Shown here one piece after another: positions 6,564-30,930 of a stretch of DNA of 44,401 nt (positions within the stretch are counted from its first letter, which is position 1; the number at the start of each line of letters is the position of its first letter). The notes below the pieces were generated by a model. That model saw nothing but the letters and a program-made list of their open reading frames with translations. It was not told the origin of the DNA and searched no databases. The stretch is from Singulisphaera sp. GP187 (GTDB lineage: Bacteria > Planctomycetota > Planctomycetia > Gemmatales > Gemmataceae). A program made the translations under genes and the position numbers. The DNA is taken from the NCBI GenBank assembly GCA_945905925.1, contig CAMDQN010000051.1, positions 1 to 44,401 of the forward strand, in the 5' to 3' direction.

Positions 6564-6583
6564 ACTGCGCCTGCCAACAGCAC

Positions 6584-7558
6584 CTAGGGAACAGGAAGCC
6601 GGTCGAGCACCTGCTTCACGAGCGATTCGGGGCGCAGGTCTTCGGCCTCGGCCTCGAACGAGATCACCAGCCGGTGCCGCAGCACGTCCGGCGCGGCAGT
6701 CTTCACGTCTTCGGGAGTGACGTACCCGCGGCCCGCCAGGAACGCGTGCGCCTTCGCCGCACGAAGTAGCGCGATCGCGGCCCGCGTACTCGCGCCGAGT
6801 TGAATCAGGCCGGTCATGTCGAGCCCGTAGTCCGCGGGCTTGCGCGTGGCGCGGATCACGTCGATCAGGTACTCCTTCACCTTTGTATCGACGTACACCG
6901 AATCCACCGCCTGTCGCAACTCTTCCAGCGCAACCACTTCAAACACCGGTTCGATGTCCACGGACGTGGCCAGCCCGCCCATTCGATCCAAAACCCGGAG
7001 TTCGTCCGCCCGATCCGGGTAGTCGATCACCAGTTTCAGCATGAACCGGTCCACCTGCGCCTCCGGCAGCGGATAGGTTCCTTCTTGTTCGATGGGGTTT
7101 TGGGTCGCGAGCACGAAGAACGGTCGCGGTACTTTCAGCGTGTTCTCGCCGATGGTGACTTGCCGTTCAGCCATCGCTTCGAGCAGCGCGCTTTGAACCT
7201 TCGCAGGGGCGCGGTTGATTTCGTCGGTCAGAACCACATTCGCGAACACCGGGCCTTGCTTCACGGTGAATTCACCGGTCCGCGGGTTGTAGATCTGCGT
7301 GCCGATCACGTCCGCGGGAAGCAGGTCCGGCGTGAACTGAATGCGTGCGAACTTGAGGTGCAGCGCGCTCGCGACGGTTCGCACCGCGAGCGTTTTCGCG
7401 AGGCCCGGCACACCTTCGAGGAGCACATGCCCGTCGGTGAGCAGGCCGATGAGCAACCCGTCGATCAACTTGCGTTGACCGATGAGGACACTTTCGACCA
7501 CCCGGTAGAACGGGTCGAGTTTCGGCCGCAGTTTCTCGATGCTCCTCGGATCGGTCAT
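6584..7558 (-). CDS. MoxR-family AAA+ ATPase
   Basis: A 324-residue cytoplasmic AAA+ ATPase of the MoxR/RavA class, which act as chaperone-like ATPases often paired with VWA or DUF58 proteins. Walker A is EGVPGLAKT (about 46-54), Walker B is VVLTDEINR, sensor 1 is FVLATQNPIEQEG, and PEAQVDRFMLKL with a C-terminal AAA lid follows. Length and order match the family. I chose ATG 7558; an in-frame TTG at 7582 lies inside a palindrome. The nearest GAGAGG ribosome-binding sequence is itself part of the palindrome arm, so folding could hide it. The usual DUF58 partner is not downstream: lgt follows instead, after another palindrome. Confidence 0.93.
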   Translation of the reverse strand: MTDPRSIEKLRPKLDPFYRVVESVLIGQRKLIDGLLIGLLTDGHVLLEGVPGLAKTLAVRTVASALHLKFARIQFTPDLLPADVIGTQIYNPRTGEFTVKQGPVFANVVLTDEINRAPAKVQSALLEAMAERQVTIGENTLKVPRPFFVLATQNPIEQEGTYPLPEAQVDRFMLKLVIDYPDRADELRVLDRMGGLATSVDIEPVFEVVALEELRQAVDSVYVDTKVKEYLIDVIRATRKPADYGLDMTGLIQLGASTRAAIALLRAAKAHAFLAGRGYVTPEDVKTAAPDVLRHRLVISFEAEAEDLRPESLVKQVLDRLPVP

Positions 7559-14956: not shown

Positions 14957-16855
14957 ATGCACACCCGCGCTGCACTCTTCCCGCTACTCCTCCTCATCCT
15001 CGCGCCGGGGGGGGCCGCCACCGGGCGCGGCGATCCTCCGGCGCCGCCGACGTTCAAGGACGCGCTCGCGTTCACCGACACCTACTGCGCGAAGTGCCAC
15101 GGCGAGAAGGTTCAGAAGGGCGGCTTGAACCTCGCGACCTTCACCGACGAAAAACGCGTCCTCAAGCAGCGCAAAGCGTGGCGTGAAGTCGCGGAGCAAC
15201 TCGCGAGCGGCGAGATGCCGCCCCAAGGCGCGAAGCAGCCCACCAAGGACGAACGCGACCGCACCGTGAAGTGGATCAAAGCGACGCTTGACGCTGCCGA
15301 CGAACTCGACCGCAAGCAACCCGACCCCGGCCGACCCGTTGTGCGCCGACTCACACCGGGGGAATACAACCGCACCGTGCGAGACCTCTTCGGTATCGAG
15401 TTCGACGCGGCCGGCGCCGTCGGAATGCCTGACGATACCGTGAGCGAATCGTTCGATAACCTCGCCGCGGCGCTCGCCTTCTCCGACACGCTCACCGAGA
15501 AATACTTCGCTGCGGCCGAACTCGTCATCGAGCGACTCTGTGCGTTGCCGCAGAAAGGTCCGAAGCCGAAGCCCGGCGAACTGCCGCCCCTTCTGGCGAA
15601 AGTGGTGAAGCCCGGTGACGCGAAGGGCACCATCGCGGAACTCGCGCGCCGCGCCTACCGCCGCCCCGTCGAAGCGAAGGAAGTGGACCGGTTGCTCACG
15701 CTCTTCGACAAGGCAACCAAAGGCGGTGCGAAGTTTGAAGACGCGCTCAAGCCGGTGTTCAAAGCGGTGCTGGTGTCGCCGCACTTCCTCCTGCGTGTGG
15801 AGCACGACCGGCCGAAGGACGAGAAGCCGTATCGCGTGACCGACCACGAACTCGCGACGCGGCTCTCGTACTTCCTGTGGTCGAGTATGCCCGACGCGGA
15901 CCTGTTCGCGCTCGCGGACAACGGCGAACTCAGCAAGCCCGCCGTGTACGACGCGCAAGTGAAGCGGATGCTCGCGGACCCGAAGGCGCGGGCGATCACG
16001 GACACGTTCGCGGAGCAGTGGCTGCGATTGCAGAAGCTCCCCGAAGCGCGGCCGAGTACCGAATTCTTCCCGACGTTCACGCCGAGACTGCGCCAGGCGA
16101 TGCACGACGAAGTCGCTCTCTTCTTCGACCACCTGCGCTCCGACGACCTTCCGATTACGGACCTGCTCGACGCGAACTACTCGTACCTCAACGGCGACCT
16201 CGCGAAGCACTACGGCATCGCGGGCATCGCGGGCGCGGAGTTCCAAAAGGTGAAACTCGGCGACCCAAACCGCGGCGGGCTGCTCGGTATGGGAGCGGTT
16301 CTTGCGATGACCTCACACACGAACCGCACCAGTCCGACGCTTCGCGGGAAGTACGTCCTGGACGTGATCCTCGGCACGCCGCCTCCCCCGCCGCCGCCGA
16401 ACGTCAGCCAGATCGACGAAGCAAAGACGCCGAAGGAACTGAAGACGTTTCGCGACAAACTCGCCGCGCACGCGACACAGGCGAACTGTGCCGGGTGCCA
16501 CGCGAAGATCGACCCGATCGGCTTCGGCTTGGAGAACTTCGACGCGGTCGGGCGCTGGCGCAAGTCCGGCGGCGACGTGGACGCAACCGGCAAACTACCG
16601 GGCGGCGACAGTTTCAACGGCTCACAAGAACTGCGTGCGGTGCTGCTCAAGAAGAAACCGCGATTCGTCGAGAACGTGACAGAGAAGTTGCTGGTGTTCG
16701 CGCTCGGCCGCGAGTTGCAACCGAGCGATGCGCCCGCGGTGAAAGCGATCGTGGCGGATCTGGAGAAGAACGGTTACAAGTTCTCTGTGCTGGTCGCGGG
16801 CGTGGCGAAGAGCTTCCCGTTCCAGCACCGCCGGAACCCAAGAGAAGACGAGTAA
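14957..16855 (+). CDS. Planctomycete cytochrome protein, DUF1587/1595/1592/1588/1585
   Basis: A 632-residue exported protein with signal peptide 1-28 from ATG 14957. The N-terminal PSCyt-type haem domain carries CAKCH (about 43-47) and the MPPQGAKQP distal segment. RRLTPGEYNRTVRDLFGIEF is the DUF1587 signature; DUF1595, DUF1592 (FLLRVEHDRP, TRLSYFLWSSMPD), DUF1588 (RGGLLGMGAVLAMTSHTNRTSP, then VLDVILGTPPPPPPP) and DUF1585 follow. A second haem motif, CAGCH (about 511-515), precedes AKIDPIGFGLENFD. The multi-domain architecture is complete and of normal order. A -10-like TATACT at 14919-14924 lies 33 nt upstream of the start, a weak promoter candidate. It forms an operon with the DUF1552 gene 3 nt downstream; function in the family is not established, though links to extracellular degradation have been proposed. 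Confidence 0.93.
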   Translation: MHTRAALFPLLLLILAPGGAATGRGDPPAPPTFKDALAFTDTYCAKCHGEKVQKGGLNLATFTDEKRVLKQRKAWREVAEQLASGEMPPQGAKQPTKDERDRTVKWIKATLDAADELDRKQPDPGRPVVRRLTPGEYNRTVRDLFGIEFDAAGAVGMPDDTVSESFDNLAAALAFSDTLTEKYFAAAELVIERLCALPQKGPKPKPGELPPLLAKVVKPGDAKGTIAELARRAYRRPVEAKEVDRLLTLFDKATKGGAKFEDALKPVFKAVLVSPHFLLRVEHDRPKDEKPYRVTDHELATRLSYFLWSSMPDADLFALADNGELSKPAVYDAQVKRMLADPKARAITDTFAEQWLRLQKLPEARPSTEFFPTFTPRLRQAMHDEVALFFDHLRSDDLPITDLLDANYSYLNGDLAKHYGIAGIAGAEFQKVKLGDPNRGGLLGMGAVLAMTSHTNRTSPTLRGKYVLDVILGTPPPPPPPNVSQIDEAKTPKELKTFRDKLAAHATQANCAGCHAKIDPIGFGLENFDAVGRWRKSGGDVDATGKLPGGDSFNGSQELRAVLLKKKPRFVENVTEKLLVFALGRELQPSDAPAVKAIVADLEKNGYKFSVLVAGVAKSFPFQHRRNPREDE

Positions 16856-16858
16856 CAC

Positions 16859-18313
16859 ATGCCACACATGCATTCCGTCAGCCGTCGGGCGTTCCTTCGC
16901 GGGGCCGGGGCCGCGATGTGCCTCCCCTTTCTCGAACAACTCAGCCCCGCCGCCCCCGGTGCAGGTGGAACAGTAAAGCCGCCGTTGCGGTTCGGCGTGT
17001 TCACCGTGACCGGTGGCACGGTCCTCGAATCGTGGAAGCCGAAGGAAACCGGCGCGCTCACAAAGCTGCCGTCGATCCTCAAGCCGCTGGAGTTCGCGAA
17101 GGACGAACTGCTCGTCCTCTCCGGCTTGAGTCACCACGGGCGCAGCGAAGGGTTGAACGCGCACGAACACTGCGCGCTGATGCACCTCACCGGCGCGGAA
17201 ATCGTGAAGAAGGTGGACGGCAAACTTGTGTCCTCGCCGTCGGTCGATCAGGTCGCAGCGCGAACAGTGGGAGACCAGACGTTCCTGCCTTCGCTCGAAC
17301 TGGGTCTCAGCAACCACGAGACGCAGTATTCGTGGCGCGGGGCCGACGTGCGCGTTCCCTACGAAGCGAACCCGCGACTGGTGTTCGACCGGATGTTCCG
17401 CGGACGCGCGCCGGTCGTTCCCAACTGGAAGACGCGCGCGGCGCAACAGACTCCGGGGGTTAACACCCCCGGCTCGCCAAAGAAAGACACGATCGACCGG
17501 AGCGTACTCGACCTCGTGCGCGAAGAAGCCAACGACCTGCGCCGCGACCTCGGCGCCGCGGATCGCAAACGCCTCGATCAATATCTGGATGGCGTGCGCG
17601 CGATCGAGAAGCGCATCGACTTCGTGGAACACCGGCAGCGGCTCGAAGTCCTCGACAGCGCGAACCCCGGCCCGTCGAAGATCACACTCCCAACCAACTT
17701 GCCGAAAGAGAACGTCCCGATCTGGCAAATCACGAACCCGGTTCACCGCGACCCCGAACACCACGAGAACTACACACGCTTAATGAGCGACCTGATGGTG
17801 CTCGCGTTCCAAACGGACACAACGCGCGTCGGCGTGTTCGCGTGCGGCAGCGACGAAGCGCAGTTCCCCGGCGTGGTCACGGTGGGCTACGAAACGCACT
17901 GCCACACGCTCGAGCACCAGGGCAACGCGGGCCGCGTCGAGGACGCGGACCCAATCTCGCGCGAAGCGTTGCGCCAGATTCACGTGTGGTACACGAAACT
18001 GTTCGCGGAGATGGTCAAGAAGATGCGCGGCATCGACGAAGGCGGTTCGTCACTGCTGGACAACACGCTGATGCTGTACACGTCGTACATGGCGGACGGC
18101 GGGCACGGCACGCACGACTACCCCGCGGTGCTGGTGGGCAAGGCGGGCGGTACGCTGCGCACGGGGCGTCACCTCGCGTTCGCCCCGAAGACGCCGGTGT
18201 CGAACCTGTACGCCGAAATCCTCGACCGCATGGGCGCGAAGACCGCCAAGTTCGGCGAGAACATGACCAGCCAGCACCGCCGGTACGAGGGCAAGCTCCC
18301 GGGGCTGGTGTAG
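16859..18313 (+). CDS. DUF1552 protein with Tat signal
   Basis: A 484-residue protein that begins with a twin-arginine export signal, SRRAFLRGAGAAMCLPFLEQL (residues 8 onward), the usual start of DUF1552 proteins. Further family features are GVFTVTGGTVLESWKP, LSGLSHHG, the LTGAEIVKK segment, VDQVAARTVG and a late LLDNTLMLYTSYMADGGHGTHDYPAVLVG that resembles the metal-binding end of the alkaline-phosphatase/DUF1501 fold. It starts 3 nt after the cytochrome gene, the standard pairing. Around residues 198-206 a short palindrome (17453-17472) lies in frame and encodes PGVNTPGS, which looks like an inserted repeat. It is likely a periplasmic partner of the upstream cytochrome; the biochemical role is unknown. 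Confidence 0.92.
   Translation: MPHMHSVSRRAFLRGAGAAMCLPFLEQLSPAAPGAGGTVKPPLRFGVFTVTGGTVLESWKPKETGALTKLPSILKPLEFAKDELLVLSGLSHHGRSEGLNAHEHCALMHLTGAEIVKKVDGKLVSSPSVDQVAARTVGDQTFLPSLELGLSNHETQYSWRGADVRVPYEANPRLVFDRMFRGRAPVVPNWKTRAAQQTPGVNTPGSPKKDTIDRSVLDLVREEANDLRRDLGAADRKRLDQYLDGVRAIEKRIDFVEHRQRLEVLDSANPGPSKITLPTNLPKENVPIWQITNPVHRDPEHHENYTRLMSDLMVLAFQTDTTRVGVFACGSDEAQFPGVVTVGYETHCHTLEHQGNAGRVEDADPISREALRQIHVWYTKLFAEMVKKMRGIDEGGSSLLDNTLMLYTSYMADGGHGTHDYPAVLVGKAGGTLRTGRHLAFAPKTPVSNLYAEILDRMGAKTAKFGENMTSQHRRYEGKLPGLV
17453..17472. repeat. Short palindrome in frame inside the DUF1552 gene
   Basis: CCGGGGGT and ACCCCCGG flank TAAC, an 8-bp perfect stem. It adds a Pro/Gly-rich loop to the DUF1552 protein without breaking the frame, unlike the helical sequence around it. 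Confidence 0.6.
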
Positions 18314-18352
18314 GCCAGCCGCGATCTGAATCCTTCCACGAACGAGGACAAT

Positions 18353-18889
18353 ATGGAGTGGGCAATCGGTTGCGGGGGTCTGACCCTCCTGGTCATCTTG
18401 GTGGGCGTGGTCGTCTACGTCGTCATGAACCGACAGGTGCTGGCACGCGAGAAGCGGATCAAGGAAGAGGGCGAAACCCTGCTGTGTTGGATCGTCACCG
18501 CTCCCGATGATCTGTACGAGGTCAACGACGTGCCCGGGTACGGGGAGGCGCGAGTGGTCTTCAGCGCCGACGAAACCGATGAGGCCGAACTCAAGAAACG
18601 GTTGAAGGAAGCCGCGAAGCGGTTGAAGAAAGGCGACATCGTTGACGAGGACGTCAGCGTGACGAAGGTCGAGAAGTTCTACGAGAAATACAAAGAGCAG
18701 CGGTGGCTGCACGGGCCGCTCAAGTTGCCGAAGTGGCTGGTGGGCGACGTCGAAGTCTACACCGCTGTCGTGCAGATCTACTGGCGCCGGCTCCCCGAAA
18801 TGCACCTGACGGAACCGTACCTGTACTGCCACGTGTTGTTCGGCGAGGATGGCGGAGTCGAGATGAGCAACGACCGGGACGAAGAGTGA
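18353..18889 (+). CDS. Membrane-anchored protein, unknown, paralogue of the next gene
   Basis: A 178-residue protein that I do not recognise. One N-terminal transmembrane helix (about 4-25, LTLLVILVGVVVYVVM) is followed by a soluble domain containing EGETLLCWIVTAPDDLY, a Lys/Glu-rich helix (80-100) and a C-terminal WRRLPEMHLTEPYLYCHVLFG. The shared order with the next gene is TM, EGETL/DGETV, the P-x-DLY/P-CLYDAD segment, an acidic patch, RLPEMHLTEPY/MLPEDHLTLDY, then Y-x-K/HVL. This shows the two are tandem duplicates that have diverged. AGGA lies a few nt upstream of the ATG. It follows the DUF1552 gene by 39 bp on the same strand but is not an expected partner. Confidence 0.75.
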   Translation: MEWAIGCGGLTLLVILVGVVVYVVMNRQVLAREKRIKEEGETLLCWIVTAPDDLYEVNDVPGYGEARVVFSADETDEAELKKRLKEAAKRLKKGDIVDEDVSVTKVEKFYEKYKEQRWLHGPLKLPKWLVGDVEVYTAVVQIYWRRLPEMHLTEPYLYCHVLFGEDGGVEMSNDRDEE

Positions 18890-18914
18890 CCCGCCACGCG
18901 TTCTGGAGAGACTG

Positions 18915-19463
18915 ATGCCGATCTGGGGCTGGATTTGCGTCGGGCTGGCTGTGGCCGCGGTGGCCGTCGTTGTTCTGCTTGTCATTTTTGTGAAGCAGTA
19001 TGAGCGCGGGCAAGAACGCCTGATGCGCGACGGCGAGACGGTTGTGGCGCGAATCTACTTCGCACACCCGTGTCTTTACGACGCGGACGACACTTCGACG
19101 TTCTCCGCGGCGTTCGTCGTGTTCACACTGGACGACGACAACTCCGAGGAACACCTCGAATATCTGAAACAGGTGTGCGAGCAACTGGAAGACTTCAAGC
19201 CGAGCAAGCGCGGCGACGCCGACGAGCAAACGATCGGAAAGGCGCTGTCGCAGCAGACCACGGTCGGCCAGACCCCGCTTCGACTTCCGGATCGGATTAC
19301 CGACGGGAGAGACGTGTACTTCGCGACCCCGAACGTGTTCCGCCGCATGCTGCCGGAAGATCACCTGACCCTGGATTACATCTACCTCAAGGTGCTGATC
19401 GACGGCGATTACCGCGACCTCGCAATGATCGAATACCCGGTCGGGAAGCGGCGCAACACCTGA
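18915..19463 (+). CDS. Membrane-anchored protein, unknown, tandem paralogue
   Basis: A 182-residue protein, paralogous to the gene 25 bp upstream. The N-terminal helix (about 5-27, VGLAVAAVAVVVLLVIFV) is followed by RDGETVVARIYFAHPCLYDADD, then an acidic segment DDDNSEEHLEYLKQ and the C-terminal MLPEDHLTLDYIYLKVLIDGDY. GGAGAG lies just upstream of the ATG. The topology would place the domain on one side of the inner membrane, with the side not determinable. Sequence similarity to the neighbour is low outside the shared landmarks, so the duplication is old or the pair has been under different selection. No database family is evident to me. Confidence 0.75.
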   Translation: MPIWGWICVGLAVAAVAVVVLLVIFVKQYERGQERLMRDGETVVARIYFAHPCLYDADDTSTFSAAFVVFTLDDDNSEEHLEYLKQVCEQLEDFKPSKRGDADEQTIGKALSQQTTVGQTPLRLPDRITDGRDVYFATPNVFRRMLPEDHLTLDYIYLKVLIDGDYRDLAMIEYPVGKRRNT

Positions 19464-19497
19464 TGGACATTCCGCTCTTCAACCCGAAGCATCACCC

Positions 19498-20379
19498 GTG
19501 AAACCTAAAACCTCCATGTTCATCGCGGTCGGCCTCGACGGATTGCGCATCGCGTCCGCCGACGGCCTCAAGTGGACCGACGCGCAGACCGGGCGCGAAG
19601 GCGAGTCGTACCGCGCCGTGGCCTTTGGGAATGGCCTGTGTGCGGCGGTTGGCAGCTTCGGCGGCGATAACATTCTCGCCAACACCGCTGATGGCAAGAC
19701 ATGGAAGACCGGCAAGCATGAGGCGAAGTACGTGAAGTACATTCGCGGACTCACCTTCGGCAACGGGCAGTTTCTTGCGCTTGGCGGCGATCCCGGGAGC
19801 GTCGGTAGCTCGAAGCCGTTCGTCATGTTCTCCAAAGACGGACTGACCTGGGACGGCCCGCACGACGTTCCCGGCAAGCACATGCTGCGGCGCGCCGCGT
19901 GGGGCGCTGGCCGGTGGGTCGGCGTCGGCGATCGCGGGCGCCGCGCCACGTCGAAAAACGGCAAGGAGTGGACCGACGCACCCGAAACGAAGGCTCTCGA
20001 CACATTGGTGGATGTCGCGTTCGGAAACAACGTGTTCGTCGGAGTGGGTCTGCACGGGTTACGCACTTCGACCACAGACGGCCTGAAGTGGACCGCACGG
20101 CAGACCGGCGAAGAGGGCGAACACCTCAACAGCGTGGTGTTCGCGAACGGCAAGTTTGTCGCGGTCGGTGTTGGCGCGACGTACACCTCTGCCGATGGCG
20201 AGAAGTGGGAGCGCGTCGTAAACGAGGACGCCCCGCAGTTCGCGGCGCACGGTGCCGGCGTGTTCGTCGGGGCCGCGTGGAAGGGCAAGTTGTTTAGCTC
20301 GAAAGACGGCGTCTTGTGGAAGGAAACACACAAGGCTGAGAAGCACGTGCTCGCGGTCGCGGTCGGCACGCTCGGCTGA
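19498..20379 (+). CDS. Beta-propeller repeat protein of BNR/sialidase-like type
   Basis: A 293-residue protein built of about six repeats of the form F-x-x-V-A-F-G-N-G-x-F-V-A-V-G followed by S-x-DG-x-x-W (for example VAFGNNVFVGVGLHGLRTS and TSADGEKWERV). Residues about 12-53 and 182-223 are especially alike, sharing DGLKWT, QTG-EGE and AVG, so the propeller arose by internal duplication. There is no signal peptide or membrane helix, so it is predicted cytoplasmic. The start is GTG 19498; ATG 19516 is the alternative, and ribosome-binding support is weak for both. Its TGA is directly followed, in the same frame, by the leftover end of an ECF sigma factor gene, so its 3' end marks a recombination junction. 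Ligand unknown. Confidence 0.75.
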   Translation: MKPKTSMFIAVGLDGLRIASADGLKWTDAQTGREGESYRAVAFGNGLCAAVGSFGGDNILANTADGKTWKTGKHEAKYVKYIRGLTFGNGQFLALGGDPGSVGSSKPFVMFSKDGLTWDGPHDVPGKHMLRRAAWGAGRWVGVGDRGRRATSKNGKEWTDAPETKALDTLVDVAFGNNVFVGVGLHGLRTSTTDGLKWTARQTGEEGEHLNSVVFANGKFVAVGVGATYTSADGEKWERVVNEDAPQFAAHGAGVFVGAAWKGKLFSSKDGVLWKETHKAEKHVLAVAVGTLG

Positions 20380-20565
20380 CCTCGCCGACACACTTCCAAG
20401 TACCTCGAAGGCGTCTCGGTCGAACGCATCGCGGCCGGCGAGCGTTCCACCGAAACCGCCGTCCGCTCGAAACTCGCCCGCGCCCGGGAAGCGTTCCGCA
20501 AAACCTTCCTCCGGCTCACCGGCGACAGCCCGACCGACGCGGCGACGTGCCATGAACGACCCTGA
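20380..20565 (+). pseudogene. C-terminal remnant of an ECF sigma factor (region 4)
   Basis: In the frame that follows the previous gene's TGA, the sequence reads SKYLEGVSVERIAAGERS, then TETAVRSKLARAREAFRKTF and RLTGD, ending at TGA 20563-20565. This is the region 4.2 helix-turn-helix and tail of ECF sigma factors (compare the general pattern YxEGLSVxEIAA...AVxSxLxRAREAFR). No ATG, GTG or TTG precedes it in this frame, and regions 2 and the linker are absent. The stop overlaps the next gene's start by 14 nt, the classic coupling of a sigma gene with its anti-sigma gene. The head of the gene has been lost and the propeller gene now abuts the break. Confidence 0.78.
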
Positions 20566-23500
20566 AACGTACCCCACCGACGAACAACTCGCCGCGCTGT
20601 TAGCGGCCACCGACAAGGACACGCCCGCCCCGGACCCGGCGTTCCTCGCCCGACTGCGCGAACAATCACAGGCCGCGTTTGAAGCCGCGACCGGCCCAGC
20701 AACAACACTCTCTCCCCCGCGCGGAAAACGAACCATGCTTGCGGTCTCCTTCCGATGGCTCGCGGCATCAGCCGTGGCGATTCTGGTGATCGGCTTCGGT
20801 GTTGCCTACTGGACAGGTGCGTTCAATCAGCCGCTCCCGGTCCCGGTGCCGCAACCGGACGAACCGTTCGTCTTCCAGAACGGACTCACCGACGACGGGC
20901 GCATTGGCAAAGTGACCGACGCGCAAGGCATCGTCGCGGTGAAACCGGTGCTGCACGAGCGATGGTCGCCGGTGCAACCGCGCCTCGTCCTCAAGCCGGG
21001 TGACTGGTTGCGCACGGACTCGCACGGCGCGAACGCGGTCGCGCTGAAGCTCATCAAATCGGCCGCGGTCATTGTCGGACCGCACTCGACCATCGAGCTA
21101 ATCAAAGCGGACGAAGTGCGGCTCCTCGCGGGTGAAGTCGAGATCACCGCGACCGACGCTTCTCCGGTCGAGTTGCACGGTCCCGACAAGCAGAAGCTCA
21201 CCGTGAAAGACAAGCAGCACTTCAAGGTCGAGAAGGAGAAACTGGTTCGCGTCGAGAAAGAACCGCTGTGGCTCGCCGGATTCAAGGGCACGACCGCGAA
21301 CGAGTCGATCGGCTCGCTGGTCCACACGGTCAATGGGGTCAACGTGCCGCTGACGGTCGGCTATCACCACGTCACGGTGGACATCCGCGACCAGATCGCG
21401 CGCACCACCATCGAAGAATCGTTCGTCAACCGCACCGACGGCATTCTCGAAGGCGTGTTCCACTTCCCGCTGCCGCAGGACGCGTCTATCTCCGGCTTCG
21501 GCATGTGGATCGGCAACGAACTCGTCGAAGCCGACGTGGTCGAGAAGCAGCGCGCCCGCGAAATCTACGAGGAGATTCTGAGGGAGAAGCGCGACCCCGG
21601 GTTGCTCGAATGGACCGGCGGGAACATCTTCAAGGCCCGCGTGTTCCCGATCCCGGCGCGGTCCGAGAAACGCATCAAGATCACCTACACGCAGGTGCTT
21701 CCGCTCCGCGGCAACCGCTACAGCTACAGCTACGGCCTGCAAAGCGAGATGCTGAAACAGCACCCGCTGCGCGACTTGAAGATCGACGTGAAGGTGAACT
21801 CCGCGGTGGCGATCAAGGGCATCACCTCGCCGACGCACCCGGCCCGCGTTGCGAAAACTGAACACTCCGGGCAGGTCGAATTCTCGGCTCAAGAATACAC
21901 GCCGACGCGCGACTTTGAAGCCGTCATCGAAGTCGAAGGCGGGCGCCCCGATGTGGTTGTGATCCCGCACCGGCGCGGCACGGACGGTTACTTCCTCGTT
22001 CAACTCACACCGCCCGGCGGCGCCGGCGACTGGGAGCGGCCCCTCGTTCCAAATAGCGAACCGCTCAAACTGTTGCTCCTCGCGGACACGTCCGCGTCGA
22101 TGGACAAGGCGCAGCGCGCGACACAAACGGCCGTGCTGAACTCGCTACTCGGCGCGCTGACACCGAAGGACACGATCAACGTCGCGGCGTGCGATGTGAA
22201 CTGCGACTGGGTATTCGAGAAGCCGGTGAGCGCGACACCCGCGAACATCGCGGCGTTACAGAAGTTTCTGGAAGAGCGGAAGTCTCTCGGTTGGACCGAT
22301 CTCGACCAGGCGTTTGCTTCCGTCATGAAAGCGAGCGTCGCGGGCACGCACGTCGTCTACCTCGGCGACGGCATCACCACGACCGGCAAGGCGGACCCAG
22401 TCGCGTTCGCGAAGCGCCTCGCGAAACTGTACGAGGGGAAGGCCGGCACGTTCCACGCGGTGAGCCTCGGCAGCAGTTACGAATCTACGGTGCTGAAAGC
22501 AATCGCGTCGCTCGGCAACGGGTCGGTGCGGCGCGTTTCGAGTGAGCGCGGGCCGCAAGCCGCGGCGATGGAACTGCTCACCGAGATCGCGACGCCCTCG
22601 CTGCGCGACCTGAAGGTGGAATTCACCGGGTTACGCACGGCCCGCGTCTACCCCGACGTGCTACCCAACGTCGCGGCCGGCACGCAGCAGATTCTGCTCG
22701 GGCGCTACCTCCCCGAAGACAAGGATCAGGCCGGCGAGATCGTCGTCACAGGGATTCTCGGCACGAAGCCCGTACGCTACACGTCGAAGGTTCACCTCAA
22801 GGACGCCGAGCAAGGGAACTCGTTCGTCCCACGACTGTGGGCGCGGATGCACCTCGACAAGTTGCTCGAACAAGGCACGTCCGAAAGCGTGAAGCAGGAC
22901 GTGATCGCGCTGAGTGAAGAGTTCAACATCATCACGCCATACACGTCGCTGCTCGTGCTGGAATCCGACGCCGACCGCGCGCGATTCGGCGTGAAGACCC
23001 AGTTCCGAATGCGCGACGGGGAGAAGTTCTTCGCCGACGGACGCGATAATGCGATGTTCGAGTTGAAGCAAAAGCAGATGAAGCTGGCGGGCGACCACCG
23101 GACCGCGCTGCGGCGGAGCATTCTGGCACAACTCAACGGTCTGGGCCGCGACGCGCGCCAGTTCCGCGGAGAGTTCCGCGAGCGACTGACCAGCGGTCTC
23201 GGGGGCGAGTTGGACCGAGCCGAGCCGTTCCTGTATTTCGGCCGCCTCGGCGAGATCGACAACAAGGAGATGCTCAGTCGCGAGTTCGGCGGGGAAGACA
23301 GTTTTGCGTCCCGAGGCTCGGACGTGTTGGAACGCCGCCTCGGTTTTGGCACCGACGAGGACGATGAAAAGAAATTGAACGAACTCCGTGACGACCCCCG
23401 AGGCGAGACCCACGCAAGGGAAGACCGCATGGGCCGGTGGGCTTTCGAATCGACGCCCGAACTCGCGAAAGCGAAGGACGGTTACTTCGACGGTGAGTAC

Positions 23501-26500
23501 CTCCAGCAACTCGCGCTCTCCGATACGACTTACGACGGGATCGACTTCGGTCTCGATGCGGGGTTGCAAGCGGAACGGCTCGAGGAGTTTGGCCGCCCGC
23601 GGGGCCGCGGCGCAAGCCCGGCCGGCGCGACCCCGTACTACCGACGCGGCTACCGGCAGCCACAACTCCAGTGGCTCGGCACGTACTTCCCGACGCTCGC
23701 GGCACCGGCGCGCGAACTGAAAGAGCCGAAAACGCTGTGGCCGGCACCGGCGCTGGCGCTCTCGCGCAGCCTTCTGCGGACCGACAAGCTCAGTCAGGTG
23801 AAGGGCGGAATCGTCATCGCGCGCAAGACCGATGGCTTCGACACGCGGCGCGCTGAACTGGCTTCGCGCGCCAACCGGCTCGAACTGGTTTCGCCGACCG
23901 CGTGGTTCGCGCGCAGCACGCCAGACGGCGGGCAAATCACGGTCTCCTGGTGCGATCCGAAGGAATACGTCGCGTACACGACCGCGTTCCAGCTCGGCCG
24001 CATTCGCGCGTCCAACAAGCACGATCTCGCACAACCACCGCTCGAACTGGCCGACGATTCCATCACGCCGCTGCACGTCAGTTACGCGTACATGGCGCCC
24101 ACCGTCGAAACCATCGCGAAGGGCCGCGAACTGCTGATCCTCACGCACAAGGACAGCCCGGAGTACGAGGTGCGCGTACTCATCGATACCACACGGCACG
24201 TCGTTCTCAGTGTCGAACACCGGCACAAAGGGAAGGTGACCTCTTCGACGAAGTTCGAGGATTTCGTCGAGGTCGCGGGGCAGTGGTGGGCGCGGAAGAT
24301 CGAGTCACTCGACGACAAGGGCCAACGAACCTCGCTAACGACGCAAACGGTAACGGAAGTCCCGGCAGCCGAGTTTGCAAAGCGAATGGCGCAGGAACTC
24401 GCGGGCAAGAGCAAGGTACAGTTCCTGAAGCAACCGCTGCCGACCATCGCGGAAGCGAAAGCGGCGGTCGCGGCCAAGAAAGCAACGTTCAATGACTTCG
24501 CTGTGCTGACGCTCTACTTCGGTGCCACGCAGCAGTGGGCGCGCGCGCTCGAACACCTCACCGAGGCTGAGCGCCTCGCCACGGGCAAAGTGGGGATGCG
24601 CTGGCTCCGCGATTCATTCCTTCTCGCGAGCCGTCGCCACGATGAGTTGCGCAAGCGTGTGCTCGACGAAGCGGCCGCGCTCGCCGCGACCACCGACGCG
24701 GATACACGCGCCAACGATTACTTCCTTGCCGAACATCTCGGAAATCAAGCCGATCAGGTGTTGCAGACCGACGAACGGCTCGCGCTGTCCGACACGTTGC
24801 AGAAGGTGTACGAACGGCAACCCGCGCACCTGTTCGCGGTGAAGACGTGGCGCAGCCGGCGCGTGTCGCTGTTCGAGCAAGCCGGACAGGCCGACAAGGC
24901 GCTACAACTCGCGAAGGAACTCGCGATCGATTTCCCGCGCGACTACTACCTCCAGTACCGCTACGCCCAGGCGCTCGTCACCAACGGGGATTACGTCGCG
25001 GCCTACGCGTGGCTCGACCGCGTACTCGTTCCCACCGCGAAGTGGGAACCGAGCGAAGAGGACACGCTCCGCGGGCAGTACGCCCAGTTCCTGCGGCAGC
25101 AGGGGCGCTACCGCGAACTCGCGGACTACCTCGCCAAATGGCTCGAACGCAACCCGGAGTCCGAGTCGCCATACGGCCAGTACCTGTCGGCGCTCGTGCG
25201 CAGCAACCAGGCGGCACGCGCCGAGGAACTCGCGGCGCAGTGGCTGCGCGAAGCACGGGTCGAAGGCGAGTTGCCGGCGCCGGTCGCCGCGCGGCTCCGC
25301 GCGGCGGTCGCGTTCGCGACGGGCCAGGGGTACGACCTGCACACGAACCGCGTCGAGGAACGGTGGCACGCGCCGCTCGCCGAAACGGTGCGGTTCTTCG
25401 CCAAACGCGACGAGCACCACAACATCCTCGGCACGATCATGTACTCGTCGCGGTTCTCCAACACCGACGTGGCCCGCGCCGTTCGCAAGGAACTGGCCGA
25501 GTTGCTGGTGAAGGAGATCGACACGCTGCCGGCCGCGCGGATCGACGCTCTCGTGAACATCGTCTGGTCCGACGCCGGGTTGGAGCGCGACGACTGGAAG
25601 AAGATCGCCACCGCGCTCCGCAAGCGATGGGACGCCGAGAAGAAACCGGACGCGAAGCACCGGATCGCGCAGCCGCTGGTTCGCGTGCTGTCGTGGCTCG
25701 GCCCGGCCGAATCGCTCGCGTTCCTTCGCGTGCAACTCAAGGACGGCCCGGAAATCTATCGCGTTTCCTACGTGAGCGATTTGTTCAACGCGATTCTGTC
25801 ACAACCGTGGACGGCTGCGATCGAGGACGAAGCGTTCGCGCTGCTCGACAAACTCGCGAACTCCGAAGAACCGGCGAACGGGCTTCGCACGCGCGTCGCG
25901 AGCCTGCACTACCTCACCGATACCCTGCTCGAAGCTCGCTACCAGGCGCGCGTGAAGACCCTCGAACACCCGGAGAAGTTGACACGCGCCGACCTGCAGA
26001 AGAAGCACGCGGAGTTCCGCAAAGAGACCCGCGAAGCCTTCGCGGACCGGCTCCGCAAGGAGGCCGCGAAGCACGCGAAGCCGTTCGCGAATTGGCTCGT
26101 CGCGGAGCGAGTCTGGATCGACATGTTGCTCGAACGCGACCCGAAGCCGGTCACCGAGGACTGCTGGGCGCTACTCACCGGCGCGCCGAAGAAGGCCGAC
26201 CCCGAAGATGACAACGCGCTCATCGAAGCGAAGTTGGATGAGATGCTTCACGCCCGCGTCTTCGTCACGCTGCTGAACCTCGCGGCCCGCAAAGGTGCCG
26301 ACGCGGCACTGGTGGAGCGGCTCGTGAAGTACGTCGATCAGCAACTCAAGGACAAGCCGGGCGACGCACGCTGGCGCGCGGAGAAATACCGGTTACTCAT
26401 CGCGCTCGACCGCGCGAAGGAACTCGAAACCGTTCTGACTCAGTGGGTCAGCGGTGCAGACCCGGACAACCGATGGCGGCTTGCGCTCGGCTACCTCCTT

Positions 26501-29398
26501 GCCGAACAAGGGAAGGTGCCGGACGCGATCAAGCAATTTGAGGTTCTCGAAGCAGCCGATGAACTCAGCCCCGCCGCGTACCGTACGCTCGCGGAGTGGT
26601 ATCTGGTCGAGAACCGCCGCGCGCAGCACGACAAGGCCCGCGTTGCGGTCTACAAGACTACCGAAGAGTACTACCTCAGTCAGCGGATCAACAACTACCT
26701 GCACCCGTGGCGCGCCACCACGGGCACGCTCCCGACAAAACTCGACCCGGAGATTCTAAACCACTTCACCGTGCTGTTCGAGAAGTCGGCTTCACCCCAG
26801 AACTACCTCTGGCAACTGCAACAGTTCTATCAGGCGTCGCGCGACTTCCGGTTGCTCTCGATGCTCCCCGACGGTGTGATCGGGCACACGGCCGGCAAGG
26901 TGTACCCGTTCCTTCAGGGGATGCGCGCGGTGCTCGGCGAGGTGCGCGATGAGGCGACCGCGGACGAACTCGCGAAGCGGATCGAAGCGGTGCGACTCTC
27001 CGCCAAGACCACAGTCGATCAGCGCGCGCTCGACCTGCTGGAATTGATGGTCGAGCGCCGCGCGGCCGAACTTCAGAACCAGCCCGGGCCGCACGCGGAG
27101 AAGGCGCTCGCGGCACTCGAGAGCGCGTTCAAACGCGAGTGGTCCGCCGGCGAACCGCGGCTCATGGCGGACTTCCTCGCGGCGGTCGGAAACGTCCCGC
27201 AAGCGGCCATCGCGAAGGAACAACTTCGCCAACTGGAACTGCTGCACAAGGGCGCCGCGGCCGGGACGTTCGACCGGTTGCACATCGCCCAGCGCCACGC
27301 TGAAACGCTCAACGCATACTCGCGCCGCCCCGAAGCGACCGACCTCCTTCAGGCCGCGCTGAAGGAGTTTGAAGAGGCGAACAACGGCGTGCTGCCGACT
27401 TCGGCGAACAGCGCCTTGCTCACGCTGATCGGCTTCATGCAAGACGCGGGGCATTATGACCGCGGCGAGAAGGTACTGCTCGCGCAACTCAAACACCCGG
27501 TTCACGGTGAACAAAAACGGTGGCTGGTCCAGCACCTCAACGACCTCTACCATCGCGCGTTGCAGAACAAGGGTGCGGTGTCGCTCGGTGAAGGGCGAGC
27601 GATCTACAAGGCGCTCGAAGGCAAGCTGTTCACCGACATGACCGAACCCGACCAGAATCACCGCTATCAGGTACTCAGTCAGCTCACTCGCCTGTACCGC
27701 ACGGGGCACGGTCTCAAGCTCGAAGGGATCGCTGCCGACCTGAAGGCGTTTGCGTTCAAGCGACTCCCGACGCTCCTGAAGGAACAAACCGTCGGTTACG
27801 ATTCGGTCGTCCGCGACGCGGCTCAAACGCTACACGACCTGATTGGCCCGCGCGACGCGATCGCATTCGTGCTGGACCGCATCGACGACGAACCCGACTG
27901 GCTGCGCTACACCAACCAGAACGCCTGGACCCAGAACAACTACAGGCTCGGCCACTGGCGCCTGGCGGTGAAGGAACTCGGCGACCTCGAACCGCGTCTC
28001 CTGAAACTCGTCCTGGGCGAACTCCGACGCGACCTCAATTCGCGCGAGTCTCGCGAACGCACGATGTACGACCGACGGCACAGCGCCCATTGGCCCGAAA
28101 AGAGCGCCGACTTTGCGAAGGTCGCGGAGGAAATACTCGCCGAACGCAAGAAGTCGAGTGCGTCGGTGGAGTACATCGCGGAGTATCTGTTCTTCGGTCT
28201 GCCTCGCGAGAAGCAGGCGATCGAAATCCTGTTCGCGGCTCACGAGCAGAAGGTTCTCGCCGAGTCCGGGCAGTGGCAACTCGCGGACTATCTCCATCGC
28301 GAACAGCGCTACGCGGAGTCGATCCCGCTGTTGCTTCCGCTGGTCGCGACACGGCCGGAGAACCTCGGTTACCGTACCAAACTGATGCACGCGTACTTCC
28401 GCGCCGGGAAGCAGGCGGAACTCCTCGCGCTGCTCACGCAGACTGACACGTTCTTCCACGAGAAGGACCGGTGGACCGAGGGCGTGCTCGCGGCGCTGGC
28501 CTACAGTTGTCTGGAGAACAAACTCTTCAAGCTATCGACCGTGTACTACGACGAACTCATTCCGTTGCACCAGCGATCGCACGCACGCCGCGGCATCGGT
28601 AACGGCACGCTATCGAACTACTACGCGCACGCGGCCAAAGCCTACGCCGGGTTGGGCGACACGAAGAAGGCCGTCGATATGGCGAGCGGGGCCGTGGTGA
28701 GTTGGGGACCGCGCCACGAACAGCGAACGGCCGCGCTGAACGCGCTCGTGGAGGTTCTCACCGACGCACCGGACCTGGCCGCGTATGTCGCGTGGTTGGA
28801 CAAGGAGAAACAAGACAGCGCGGTGGTCCGCAAGGCGATCGGGAAGGCCTACATCCAGAAGAACGACCACGCGCGGGCGATCCCACAGTTGCAACTCGCG
28901 TCCGAACTGCAACCGGACGACGCGGAGATTTACGAGGCACTACTCGTCTGCCTCGACAAGATCGGTCTGAAGGACGAGGCCGTCGCTCAACTGCTTCGAG
29001 CGGTCGAGTTGTCGCGGCGCGACATCAAGCTCTACGAGCAACTCGGCAAGCGCCTCACCGATCTGAACCGCACGGGCGAAGCCGAGCGCGCGTACACCTC
29101 GGTGGTGGAAATGCTGCCCAACGAATCGGAGGGTCACGCGCTGCTGGCAGAGGTTCGCGGGAAGCAGAACCGCTGGCCGGACGCGATCGCGCACTGGGAG
29201 CGCGTCGCCGAGATTCGCGCGCTGGAGCCGACCGGCCTGTTGAAGCTCGCCGCGGCGCAAATCGAGAACAAGGACTGGGCCGCCGCCTCGAAGTCGTTGC
29301 GCACGCTGCGGAGCCAAAGCTGGCCGCCGCGCTTCACTGATGTGGAGAAGGAGACGCGCGAACTGGAGAAGAAGTTGGAGGAGCGGCAGAAAAAGTGA
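20552..29398 (+). CDS. Giant membrane protein: anti-sigma-like head, FecR-like, VIT, VWA, TPR
   Basis: A 2948-residue protein. ATG 20552 is used because it overlaps the sigma-factor remnant; the open frame runs back to 20252 but with unrelated codon use. Residues 1-66 are cytoplasmic, with PDPAFLARLREQSQAAF resembling planctomycete anti-sigma heads. One helix follows (68-90), then a FecR-like region (about 120-240, LKPGDWLRTD, AVIVGPHSTIEL, LLAGEVEI), a VIT domain (about 258-395), and a VWA domain (about 505-690) with an intact DTSAS metal site (512-516). The VIT-VWA C-terminal signature TPYTSLLVLE comes near 795. A charged low-complexity part (830-1000) leads to a segment near 1190-1262 that resembles LolA/RseB-type sheets (weak). 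From about 1320 to the end are helical/TPR repeats, clearest in 2755-2948. Most of it should be periplasmic. It may sense or bind envelope components; function unproven. Confidence 0.93.
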   Translation: MNDPETYPTDEQLAALLAATDKDTPAPDPAFLARLREQSQAAFEAATGPATTLSPPRGKRTMLAVSFRWLAASAVAILVIGFGVAYWTGAFNQPLPVPVPQPDEPFVFQNGLTDDGRIGKVTDAQGIVAVKPVLHERWSPVQPRLVLKPGDWLRTDSHGANAVALKLIKSAAVIVGPHSTIELIKADEVRLLAGEVEITATDASPVELHGPDKQKLTVKDKQHFKVEKEKLVRVEKEPLWLAGFKGTTANESIGSLVHTVNGVNVPLTVGYHHVTVDIRDQIARTTIEESFVNRTDGILEGVFHFPLPQDASISGFGMWIGNELVEADVVEKQRAREIYEEILREKRDPGLLEWTGGNIFKARVFPIPARSEKRIKITYTQVLPLRGNRYSYSYGLQSEMLKQHPLRDLKIDVKVNSAVAIKGITSPTHPARVAKTEHSGQVEFSAQEYTPTRDFEAVIEVEGGRPDVVVIPHRRGTDGYFLVQLTPPGGAGDWERPLVPNSEPLKLLLLADTSASMDKAQRATQTAVLNSLLGALTPKDTINVAACDVNCDWVFEKPVSATPANIAALQKFLEERKSLGWTDLDQAFASVMKASVAGTHVVYLGDGITTTGKADPVAFAKRLAKLYEGKAGTFHAVSLGSSYESTVLKAIASLGNGSVRRVSSERGPQAAAMELLTEIATPSLRDLKVEFTGLRTARVYPDVLPNVAAGTQQILLGRYLPEDKDQAGEIVVTGILGTKPVRYTSKVHLKDAEQGNSFVPRLWARMHLDKLLEQGTSESVKQDVIALSEEFNIITPYTSLLVLESDADRARFGVKTQFRMRDGEKFFADGRDNAMFELKQKQMKLAGDHRTALRRSILAQLNGLGRDARQFRGEFRERLTSGLGGELDRAEPFLYFGRLGEIDNKEMLSREFGGEDSFASRGSDVLERRLGFGTDEDDEKKLNELRDDPRGETHAREDRMGRWAFESTPELAKAKDGYFDGEYLQQLALSDTTYDGIDFGLDAGLQAERLEEFGRPRGRGASPAGATPYYRRGYRQPQLQWLGTYFPTLAAPARELKEPKTLWPAPALALSRSLLRTDKLSQVKGGIVIARKTDGFDTRRAELASRANRLELVSPTAWFARSTPDGGQITVSWCDPKEYVAYTTAFQLGRIRASNKHDLAQPPLELADDSITPLHVSYAYMAPTVETIAKGRELLILTHKDSPEYEVRVLIDTTRHVVLSVEHRHKGKVTSSTKFEDFVEVAGQWWARKIESLDDKGQRTSLTTQTVTEVPAAEFAKRMAQELAGKSKVQFLKQPLPTIAEAKAAVAAKKATFNDFAVLTLYFGATQQWARALEHLTEAERLATGKVGMRWLRDSFLLASRRHDELRKRVLDEAAALAATTDADTRANDYFLAEHLGNQADQVLQTDERLALSDTLQKVYERQPAHLFAVKTWRSRRVSLFEQAGQADKALQLAKELAIDFPRDYYLQYRYAQALVTNGDYVAAYAWLDRVLVPTAKWEPSEEDTLRGQYAQFLRQQGRYRELADYLAKWLERNPESESPYGQYLSALVRSNQAARAEELAAQWLREARVEGELPAPVAARLRAAVAFATGQGYDLHTNRVEERWHAPLAETVRFFAKRDEHHNILGTIMYSSRFSNTDVARAVRKELAELLVKEIDTLPAARIDALVNIVWSDAGLERDDWKKIATALRKRWDAEKKPDAKHRIAQPLVRVLSWLGPAESLAFLRVQLKDGPEIYRVSYVSDLFNAILSQPWTAAIEDEAFALLDKLANSEEPANGLRTRVASLHYLTDTLLEARYQARVKTLEHPEKLTRADLQKKHAEFRKETREAFADRLRKEAAKHAKPFANWLVAERVWIDMLLERDPKPVTEDCWALLTGAPKKADPEDDNALIEAKLDEMLHARVFVTLLNLAARKGADAALVERLVKYVDQQLKDKPGDARWRAEKYRLLIALDRAKELETVLTQWVSGADPDNRWRLALGYLLAEQGKVPDAIKQFEVLEAADELSPAAYRTLAEWYLVENRRAQHDKARVAVYKTTEEYYLSQRINNYLHPWRATTGTLPTKLDPEILNHFTVLFEKSASPQNYLWQLQQFYQASRDFRLLSMLPDGVIGHTAGKVYPFLQGMRAVLGEVRDEATADELAKRIEAVRLSAKTTVDQRALDLLELMVERRAAELQNQPGPHAEKALAALESAFKREWSAGEPRLMADFLAAVGNVPQAAIAKEQLRQLELLHKGAAAGTFDRLHIAQRHAETLNAYSRRPEATDLLQAALKEFEEANNGVLPTSANSALLTLIGFMQDAGHYDRGEKVLLAQLKHPVHGEQKRWLVQHLNDLYHRALQNKGAVSLGEGRAIYKALEGKLFTDMTEPDQNHRYQVLSQLTRLYRTGHGLKLEGIAADLKAFAFKRLPTLLKEQTVGYDSVVRDAAQTLHDLIGPRDAIAFVLDRIDDEPDWLRYTNQNAWTQNNYRLGHWRLAVKELGDLEPRLLKLVLGELRRDLNSRESRERTMYDRRHSAHWPEKSADFAKVAEEILAERKKSSASVEYIAEYLFFGLPREKQAIEILFAAHEQKVLAESGQWQLADYLHREQRYAESIPLLLPLVATRPENLGYRTKLMHAYFRAGKQAELLALLTQTDTFFHEKDRWTEGVLAALAYSCLENKLFKLSTVYYDELIPLHQRSHARRGIGNGTLSNYYAHAAKAYAGLGDTKKAVDMASGAVVSWGPRHEQRTAALNALVEVLTDAPDLAAYVAWLDKEKQDSAVVRKAIGKAYIQKNDHARAIPQLQLASELQPDDAEIYEALLVCLDKIGLKDEAVAQLLRAVELSRRDIKLYEQLGKRLTDLNRTGEAERAYTSVVEMLPNESEGHALLAEVRGKQNRWPDAIAHWERVAEIRALEPTGLLKLAAAQIENKDWAAASKSLRTLRSQSWPPRFTDVEKETRELEKKLEERQKK

Positions 29399-29517: not shown

Positions 29518-30930
29518 TCACACCAGTTCGCGCATGGGTTCGCAAGCGTCGAGGAGGTACTGCGGGCGCCCCGTGGGGTCGGGGATCGTCGTCGTGCCCG
29601 AGGTGATGCCGAGCGACTTGTACAGCGTGGCGAACACCTCTTGGTACGTGACGGGGCGCGACACCGCCTTCGCGCCAGTGCGGTCGGTCGCGCCGATCAC
29701 CTGCCCGCCCTTGATCCCGCCGCCCGCGAGCAGCGCCGGACCGACCTCCGGCCAGTGGTCGCGCCCGCCCGACGCGTTCACCTTCGGCGTGCGCCCAAAC
29801 TCGCCCCACACCACGATTGCCACGTCGCCGAGCATCCCGCGATCTTCGAGATCGGTGACCAGCGCCGCGAGCGCGTGATCGACGACCGGAACGAGCTGCC
29901 GCATTCGCGGAAAGTTCTTCGAGTGGGTGTCGAAGTCGCTGAAGGACACGCTCACACACCGCACGCCTGCTTCGACCAGCCGGCGCGCGAGCAACAGCTT
30001 CTTCGCGGCACTCCCGTCCTCGCTCGTGTAGAACTTCTCGCCGCCTGCTGACGACTCCGGCGGCGTGTAGCGTTGTTGCACCTTCTCAGGCTCTTGCGCG
30101 AGATCAAGTGCCGCCGCGAGCCGACCGGAGGTAAGGATGTTCAGCGCCTGCGCGTTGAACTTGTCGAGCGCCTCCATCGTGCCGCTCGCGTCGAGGTCAC
30201 GGCGTGTGTCGTCGAACCCGGCGAGCAACCGCGTCCGGTCTTCGAGCCGCTCGGTCGTCATCCCTTCCGCGAGCGTGAGCTGAATCGTGTGGTTCGCGCC
30301 GCGTGCAGCGAGTTCGCCCTTCATACCGGCTTCGAGTTCACGCGCGAACATCTTCGAGATGTCCGGGCGGAACGGGCCGAACGCCGGTCCGAGGAACCCC
30401 GGCCTGGCGCTGTTGCGCACCAGCGGGCGCCCTTGCAACAGATCGACGAACGCCGGCACTGGGTCGGTGGCCGCGCCGCGCAACTTCGCGACGACGGACC
30501 CCATCGCGGGGCGCCCGCCGACGGTTTGCATGTCCTTCGAAGGGAACCCGGACTGACACTGGAACGCGTCGTGTGCGCCGGCCGAAGCAACCAGCGACCG
30601 CACGAACGCGAACCGGTCCGCGATGGCCGCGACCTTCGGCATGAGTTCCGAGATTCGCAGTCCAATAACTTTGGTAGCGATCGGCGCGAACTCGCCGCGC
30701 ACTTCTTCCGGTGCGTCCGGCTTCGGATCAATGGTGTCGTGCTGTGGTGGACCGCCATCGAGGTGAATGTTGATCACCGACTTCACGGACGAGCGCACTC
30801 CCGACGCTGCTTCGGCGCGAAGCAAGTCCGCGAGCGTCATTCCGCCGAACCCCATCGCGCCCGCGACGAGCACTTGCCGCCGCGTGGGTTGTGCGGACGA
30901 TGAACGGCAGCGTTCGAAGATTGTGAGCAT
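29518..30930 (-). CDS. DUF1501 protein with Tat-type signal
   Basis: A 470-residue protein of the DUF1501 family (alkaline-phosphatase-like fold, abundant in planctomycetes). The export signal holds TRRQVLVAGAMGFGGMTLADLL (from about residue 16). Family motifs are INIHLDGGPPQHDTIDPKP near the start, RISELMPKVAAIADRFAFVRS, and the C-terminal VVWGEFGRTPKVNASGGRDHWP with HW as the metal-site signature. Length matches the family (about 430-480). DUF1501 genes are usually paired with a PSD1/PSCyt cytochrome gene; that partner is missing here. Instead the gene follows, after 108 bp, an MFS transporter gene on the same strand. It may be exported and membrane-associated. Its activity is unknown. Confidence 0.93.
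   Translation of the reverse strand: MLTIFERCRSSSAQPTRRQVLVAGAMGFGGMTLADLLRAEAASGVRSSVKSVINIHLDGGPPQHDTIDPKPDAPEEVRGEFAPIATKVIGLRISELMPKVAAIADRFAFVRSLVASAGAHDAFQCQSGFPSKDMQTVGGRPAMGSVVAKLRGAATDPVPAFVDLLQGRPLVRNSARPGFLGPAFGPFRPDISKMFARELEAGMKGELAARGANHTIQLTLAEGMTTERLEDRTRLLAGFDDTRRDLDASGTMEALDKFNAQALNILTSGRLAAALDLAQEPEKVQQRYTPPESSAGGEKFYTSEDGSAAKKLLLARRLVEAGVRCVSVSFSDFDTHSKNFPRMRQLVPVVDHALAALVTDLEDRGMLGDVAIVVWGEFGRTPKVNASGGRDHWPEVGPALLAGGGIKGGQVIGATDRTGAKAVSRPVTYQEVFATLYKSLGITSGTTTIPDPTGRPQYLLDACEPMRELV

Follow-up and report, generated by a model that had tools for sequence, protein, structure and literature searches.

The window, i.e. the whole stretch of 44,401 nucleotides that was analyzed, represents one entire contig of the 251-contig, 6.47-Mb genome of Singulisphaera sp. 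GP187 (G000, 96.6% complete). It contains a giant gene on the forward strand, which runs from an ATG at position 20552 to a stop at 29398 and encodes a protein of 2948 amino acids. The initial annotation had reported this single open frame, and both the absence of internal stops and the comparison with orthologs confirmed that it is intact. The giant gene is preceded by a gene for a protein of 287 amino acids (19516..20379, +), which is a conserved neighbor in G003 and G015 and forms the left edge of a deletion. The window further includes two adjoining genes for small single-helix proteins (18353-18889 and 18915-19463, both +) that look like tandem paralogs and are both also found 5' of the giant gene in G003, and two frames (14957-18313, + and 29518-30930, -) that we take to resemble planctomycete cytochrome-type and DUF1552/DUF1501-type proteins. 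A promoter and terminator scan of positions 20200-20620 yielded none, and a plasmid search with positions 18300-20700 gave no match.

The first 66 residues of the giant protein (20552..20749, +) constitute a putative cytoplasmic head with helices predicted at residues 10-20 and 29-46, the confidence of which is low (block pLDDT 41-74; the head model is poor). The head is followed by a predicted membrane helix at residues 68-89 (20753..20818, +), and a hydrophobic segment is likewise seen in the sister row L046. The presumed topology, a cytosolic head and then a single membrane helix, was assigned to the relatives by hydropathy, and agrees with the head of 66 residues before a single helix that had been described earlier. 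The proposal that this head is of the anti-sigma type found no counterpart at the level of sequence: the head gave no meaningful match to Pfam and no credible match to PDB, and residues 1-66 contain neither His nor Cys, so that the Hx3Cx2C zinc motif is absent. The latter excludes the zinc type only, as class I anti-sigma domains without zinc exist. The case for the head is thus one of gene context.

Beyond the membrane helix, residues 108-260 (20873..21331, +) make up a beta domain that is FecR-like in looks and has no Pfam match. FecR as a family label, as implied by the initial annotation, was rejected on Pfam: the FecR domain (PF04773) was recovered in 0 of 12 orthologs and not in window residues 104-263 at E<=10, and a genome-wide search at E<=1 matched two other genes and not the giant gene. 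Within a set of five relatives with a signal peptide, one matched FecR at E 0.16, which is below the cut-off. The VIT domain (residues 272-379; 21365..21688, +; PF08487, E 6.3e-30) and the VWA domain (residues 506-658; 22067..22525, +; PF13768, VWA_3, E 1.6e-12) both scored above the Pfam cut-offs, as anticipated. The residues D512, S514, S516, T582 and D606, which we take to be the metal site (MIDAS) of the VWA domain, are all present, T582 being nearly invariant and the other four invariant in the 12 orthologs, which makes the protein a member of the ITIH-like VIT-VWA group. Residues 277-813 (21380..22990, +), spanning both domains, resemble a module of the ITIH heavy-chain type: a profile of residues 1-880 matched ITIH4 over exactly this range (E 1.2e-29), and the structure model, of middling confidence with a mean pLDDT of 64.7, matched the ITIH1 fold (E 5.9e-34). 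The giant shares the VIT and VWA domains and the MIDAS residues with the ITIH heavy chains and differs from them in being a bacterial membrane protein of a different surrounding architecture. Residues 402-811 furthermore match the VWA part of the marine sortase target protein family of NCBIfam (TIGR03788), of which the giant is not a member (206 bits against a cut-off of 551.65).

A variable linker (residues 841-1030; 23072..23641, +), recognizable by low ortholog identity and a high pN, leads to a part that had been noted for its likeness to LolA and RseB. As a fold this likeness was upheld: residues 1025-1340 were modeled with a pLDDT of 89.9 as a LolA/RseB-type sheet, and residues ~1065-1296 (23744..24439, +) are predicted to have the fold of the LolA/RseB superfamily. 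Foldseek retrieved LolA3 of Porphyromonas on top (E 1.3e-10), other proteins of the LolA superfamily, and RseB (E 3.9e-7), and VIA-align 2 (model residues 37-272) returned Z-scores of 13.4 for a DUF1329 protein (196 residues at 6.0 A), 13.2 for LolA3 and 9.5 for RseB (171 residues at 5.0 A). Because the TM-scores are modest (0.37/0.45 at the top match), the model points to a shared fold and not to a close relative; by sequence, this part had no credible PDB match and a Pfam LolA_like match at E 0.03, below the cut-off. The ~1600 residues of helical repeats that had been assigned to the C-terminal part were recovered at both of its ends, the stretch between them not being confirmed. TPR-like repeats lie at residues 1443-1541 (24878..25174, +; TPR_19 with 31.2 bits and TPR_14 with 32.0 bits, cut-offs 25 and 23.5) and TPRs at residues 2751-2918 (28802..29305, +; TPR_11 at 2764-2797 with 33.2 bits, cut-off 26.8; NCBIfam models below their cut-offs), each given as the best stretch per Pfam family.

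Of the 98 other genomes that were searched, 11 have a full-length ortholog of 2933-3306 amino acids, which implies that size and layout are conserved, and one more (G006) has an ortholog split by a frameshift. The identity of the orthologs to the window protein amounts to 86% for G003, 79% for G015 and 67% for G004 and G028, and to 35-39% for three orthologs from a different family of the same class. In addition, scanning named genomes yielded 105 confirmed loci, the best 80 of which were used for comparison. These 80 come mostly from Planctomycetota and further from records of Verrucomicrobia, Kiritimatiellae, Lentisphaerae and Latescibacterota, the closest named isolate among them being Zavarzinella formosa (Gemmataceae; L047, DSM 19928). 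The giant protein thus belongs to a family of ~3000-residue proteins present mostly in Planctomycetota and neighboring phyla.

Between the 287-residue gene, which ends at 20379, and the giant gene we found what is left of an ECF sigma factor gene. The codons that run up to the giant gene and across its start encode ...KYLEGVSVERIAAGERSTETAVRSKLARAREAFRKTFLRLTGDS..., i.e. the last ~58 codons (region 4) and the stop of an ECF gene (20389..20565, +), overlapping the start of the giant gene; the encoded stretch shares 81% identity with residues 147-204 of the G006 ECF (E 5.7e-23). These ~58 codons are all that the window holds of a cognate ECF beside the giant gene, which the relatives do possess. 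Alignment to G015 showed that the window junction at 20395/20398 joins G015 positions 4783 and 5383, so that ~600 bp are missing, among them the intergenic sequence and ~160 codons from the start of the 213-codon ECF gene. In the sister species G003 it is the stretch 5027-5528 that is missing, leaving a 5' ECF fragment with a stop. Since the window and G003 each keep part of what was lost in the other, neither deletion derives from the other, and the giant gene is intact in both. An intact orthologous ECF gene was not found elsewhere in G000 or G003, where the other matches are at most 33% identical, and with G000 being 96.6% complete there is room for a copy in an assembly gap. It is extremely improbable that the missing ECF is itself an artefact of the genome bin. 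The window makes up one entire contig of a fragmented assembly, which would leave scope for such an error, but the junction lies inside the contig, between syntenic genes, and a 3' remnant is kept in frame; G003, which was assembled separately, lacks its ECF through a different deletion with a 5' remnant and stop.

The relatives make clear what has been lost. At 11 of the 13 whole-genome loci a same-strand ECF gene of ~200 residues lies directly upstream of the giant gene, the exceptions being the window and G003; in a Pfam scan of three of these ECFs, Sigma70_r2 scored above the cut-off in all three and Sigma70_r4_2 in two. Among the best 80 of the 105 loci, the body is the same but the N-terminus takes three forms, with a first type of head (head 1, 47 loci), a second type (head 2, 7 loci) or a signal peptide or short anchor called by eye (22 loci), and four loci lack the N-terminus. 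For head 1, an ECF frame is directly upstream at 43 of the 47 loci, including L099, whose ECF runs off the contig. The other four are L087, with the ECF split by a frameshift into two overlapping frames, L046, which corresponds to G003, with a remnant, L050 at a contig edge, and L098, a headed giant with a broken frame for which no ECF was found; L098 and L087 are possible further cases of ECF loss or else assembly errors. For head 2, all seven loci have an ECF of another group directly upstream. The latter ECFs score 244-279 bits against an HMM built from these same seven and 27-40 bits against the head-1 ECF HMM, and the two that were compared with NCBIfam reached 132.7 and 135.7 bits for TIGR02989, a Rhodopirellula/Verrucomicrobium family with a cut-off of 124.55. 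The adjacency of ECF genes that had been predicted for homologs was therefore borne out, with 50 of the 54 headed loci (43 + 7) among the best 80 of 105. No ECF lies directly upstream in any of the 22 signal-peptide forms, 19 of them having at least ~600 upstream bases to judge by; an ECF frame downstream on the opposite strand (L066) and a weak ECF match of 23 bits in a long frame ~2.5 kb upstream (L120) were not counted as adjacent. The sorting of the forms was done by eye and by hydropathy while the ECF result was already known. The earlier expectation that the helix is no plain signal peptide consequently holds for the window form, where 66 residues precede it, and not for the 22 relatives (among the best 80 of 105) that by eye begin with a signal peptide or short anchor. 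At 29 of the 52 ECF/giant pairs measured, the two genes overlap by 1-20 bases. Of the possible start codons of the giant gene, the one closest to the stop of the ECF gene was used, which favors short gaps, and the gap for L101 was mis-measured.

The window head keeps the conserved core of head 1, which in 45 relatives (the 47 less L046 and L098) consists of D/E10 (44 of 45), L13, L16, L17, D28 (39), L32 (40), R36 (32) and F43 (37). Between heads 1 and 2, hhalign detected no similarity, and since the two dissimilar heads each come with their own ECF group, head type tracks ECF type. A Pfam scan of two head-2 N-termini found a true FecR domain C-terminal to the helix in L109 (E 2.7e-9) and no match in L101. 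The beta domain (up to 79 loci) aligned to the seven head-2 cassettes too weakly for the match to be of use (hhalign probability 4.6%, E 0.0088, 34 columns). In most head-1 proteins (e.g. L042, L043, L061) a domain of ~180 residues is inserted between the helix and the beta domain. It is absent from the window protein (between residues 89 and 106) and its clade, which lost it, and from L060 and L067. It was suspected to be a second LolA-type domain, for which the evidence is weak (one of 20 members matched Pfam LolA, E 0.0016; PDB LolA, E 0.27), and a profile comparison with the LolA-type part of the window protein gave no match.

On a tree of the VIT-VWA part (INDEPENDENCE; 85 rows), the three forms require seven changes when loci without an N-terminus are excluded. 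The signal-peptide loci L073 and L074 fall within the head-1 side (support 86), and the head-2 and signal-peptide forms intermix. In a test on 77 rows, an ECF accompanied 56 of 58 headed and 0 of 19 signal-peptide forms (Fisher 4e-16, the rows not being independent). This test added the window and five whole-genome loci, scored L087 as ECF-bearing (other than in the 43 of 47), and omitted L098 (broken frame), L050, L057, L062 and L108 (short upstream sequence) and the four loci without an N-terminus. There are three independent contrasts on well-supported branches (seven on the whole tree), and these three agree in direction (sign test p 0.25); the correlation of form and ECF is for that reason striking but phylogenetically thin.

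Because the three N-terminal forms differ in ECF adjacency, the headed ones having it and the signal-peptide ones not, the head is probably a sigma-interacting module. We consider it likely that the gene is an orphaned member of a conserved two-gene ECF/giant system, the protein being the membrane regulator of an ECF that was lost here. Two other explanations were weighed against the same data. It could be argued that the protein is purely structural or adhesive and that the ECF adjacency is a by-product of gene order. Conservation, measured as ortholog identity, indeed peaks in VIT-VWA and not in the head, and modules of the ITIH type act in binding extracellular partners. Such a role by itself is nevertheless very unlikely, as an ECF directly upstream at 50 of 54 headed and 0 of 22 signal-peptide loci (19 judgeable; best 80 of 105), with two ECF groups involved, is not what a by-product would look like. 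Rather unlikely is also the possibility that the ECF drives transcription of the giant gene, which would then be its target, an envelope scaffold with the head as a mere membrane anchor. The body must have a function of its own, because 22 of the best 80 of 105 loci have it with neither a head nor an adjacent ECF, and the failure of the head to match any anti-sigma domain fits a scaffold as well. A target, however, needs no head, and the head is absent in exactly those forms that lack the ECF, with two dissimilar heads matching two ECF groups.

To judge the state of the orphan, the window and G003 were compared by the Nei-Gojobori method, with several dS values near saturation. The dN/dS is 0.17 overall, 0.07 for the beta domain, 0.10 for VIT and 0.40 for the head; as far as these ratios tell, the giant gene is under purifying selection. 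Five pairs that keep the ECF gave 0.16-0.50 for the head, a range that spans the 0.40 of the window, so that no relaxation of selection on the head was seen to follow the loss of the ECF. Compared over 47 codons, the amino-acid changes in the ECF remnant do not clearly exceed those in intact copies. As the remnant differs no more than intact ECFs do among themselves, the ECF may have been lost recently, which means that the purifying selection cannot be dated to the time after the loss. These data bear on a further explanation, which we hold to be distinctly unlikely, in which another ECF of this genome has adopted the orphan head, which still signals. Candidates abound, with 31 Sigma70_r4_2 matches at E<=0.01 (24-129 per genome in the 13 genomes examined), and a takeover would account for a head core that was kept after the ECF was lost and for a giant gene that stayed intact in two species with separate losses. 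The other ECF matches of the genome are, on the other hand, at most 33% identical to the lost type, and a head dN/dS within the range of the ECF-keeping pairs is no sign of continued use, with the loss perhaps too recent to tell.

The orphaned-regulator reading can be worked out as follows, building on the deletion, the intact giant gene, the folds, the three forms and the gene context, and with the binding of the head to the sigma factor, the direction of control and the ligands being what we infer. In the relatives, the short head would bind, hold or assist, inside the cell, the ECF that is encoded together with the giant. The single helix would cross the inner membrane and the ~2850 residues outside would sense a ligand in the envelope, which might act at the VWA metal site, the LolA/RseB-type part or the TPRs and alter the membrane-proximal part. 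Proteolysis or a conformational change of the head would then release or hold the sigma factor. The body is a module that also occurs alone behind a signal peptide and that has been joined to two unrelated cassettes of head and ECF. In the present genome, the deletion of ~600 bp has removed the 5' three quarters of the ECF gene, with the head and body kept and the output missing. The window protein thus most likely descends from a transmembrane regulator of a sigma factor, to which its head would have bound, and is now orphaned; the locus gives the impression of a receptor that has been severed from its output. The transmembrane signaling receptor that had been proposed earlier fits the family and, because the ECF gene was lost here, probably no longer this locus with a sigma factor of its own.

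A bolder version, which we put forward tentatively and lean slightly against, is that the envelope body is a plug-in sensor that has repeatedly been coupled to RNA polymerase and uncoupled from it. The fusion to two unrelated sigma-binding heads with matching ECFs, the change to or from the signal-peptide form, and the twofold deletion of the ECF in the window lineage with the receptor kept would all be expressions of this. The window would then have been caught in mid-switch to a sigma-free protein, or would encode a decoy that binds foreign sigma factors. If the head is the sigma-binding part, the family provides a natural domain-swap experiment, with one body, two heads with their own ECFs and a headless form, in which head specificity and signal transmission become testable by exchange of parts. 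The two sister species with the receptor and without the sigma factor moreover raise the question whether a giant protein of the anti-sigma type can work alone.

The layout of the giant compares well with that of the membrane-bound ECF anti-sigma factors (the RseA, RsiW, FecR and CnrY classes), with a short cytosolic N-terminus, one helix and a large outer part, and with a gene that in the relatives lies directly downstream of the ECF gene. In the parts consulted of PMC8103513 and PMC7406223, anti-sigma genes are said to usually adjoin their ECF gene, and the class II anti-sigma factor CnrY is described there (PMC7406223, PMC8103513) as a pair of helices wrapped around the sigma factor; the two helices predicted with low confidence for the window head are merely reminiscent of CnrY. 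The differences are an outer part of ~2850 residues, a head without detectable similarity and without Hx3Cx2C, and, for the window giant, the lack of a partner sigma factor in this genome. With RseB/MucB and the LolA superfamily the giant shares the modeled fold of residues ~1065-1296, which unlike in RseB/MucB is built into the receptor polypeptide and is not a separate periplasmic protein.

ECF factors are numerous in planctomycetes, and their inputs are for the most part unknown. Unusual multidomain proteins of Gemmataceae that join ECF sigma domains with repeats such as WD40 are mentioned in the part consulted of PMC11032199, citing Mahajan et al. 2020, and in a search of open-access papers we recognized no description of an ECF-linked VIT-VWA-TPR giant. 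Most other matches of the giant in the search of the 98 other genomes were short VIT-VWA proteins, mostly of 750-930 amino acids and ~25-33% identical, some of which, in Gemmataceae, lie beside ECF genes. They share the VIT-VWA module with the giant, no LolA-type part was seen in them, and the one that was read has a signal peptide by eye. At five Gemmataceae loci, picked for a nearby ECF match, the order is ECF, a single-helix protein of 450-472 amino acids that is anti-sigma-like by eye (the one scanned gave no Pfam match), and short VIT-VWA; these loci are possibly an unfused counterpart of the giant. The genome of the window itself contains a second, short VIT-VWA gene (L128, G000:C43:40000-47938, 3983-6637, -), with no ECF within the 8 kb fetched at that contig end. 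Finally, in G006 (L040, G006:C616) the ECF gene is whole but the giant gene is broken near residue 930-1012 into two frames, which may be a sequencing error; the damage, a broken giant and a kept ECF, is the opposite of that in the window.
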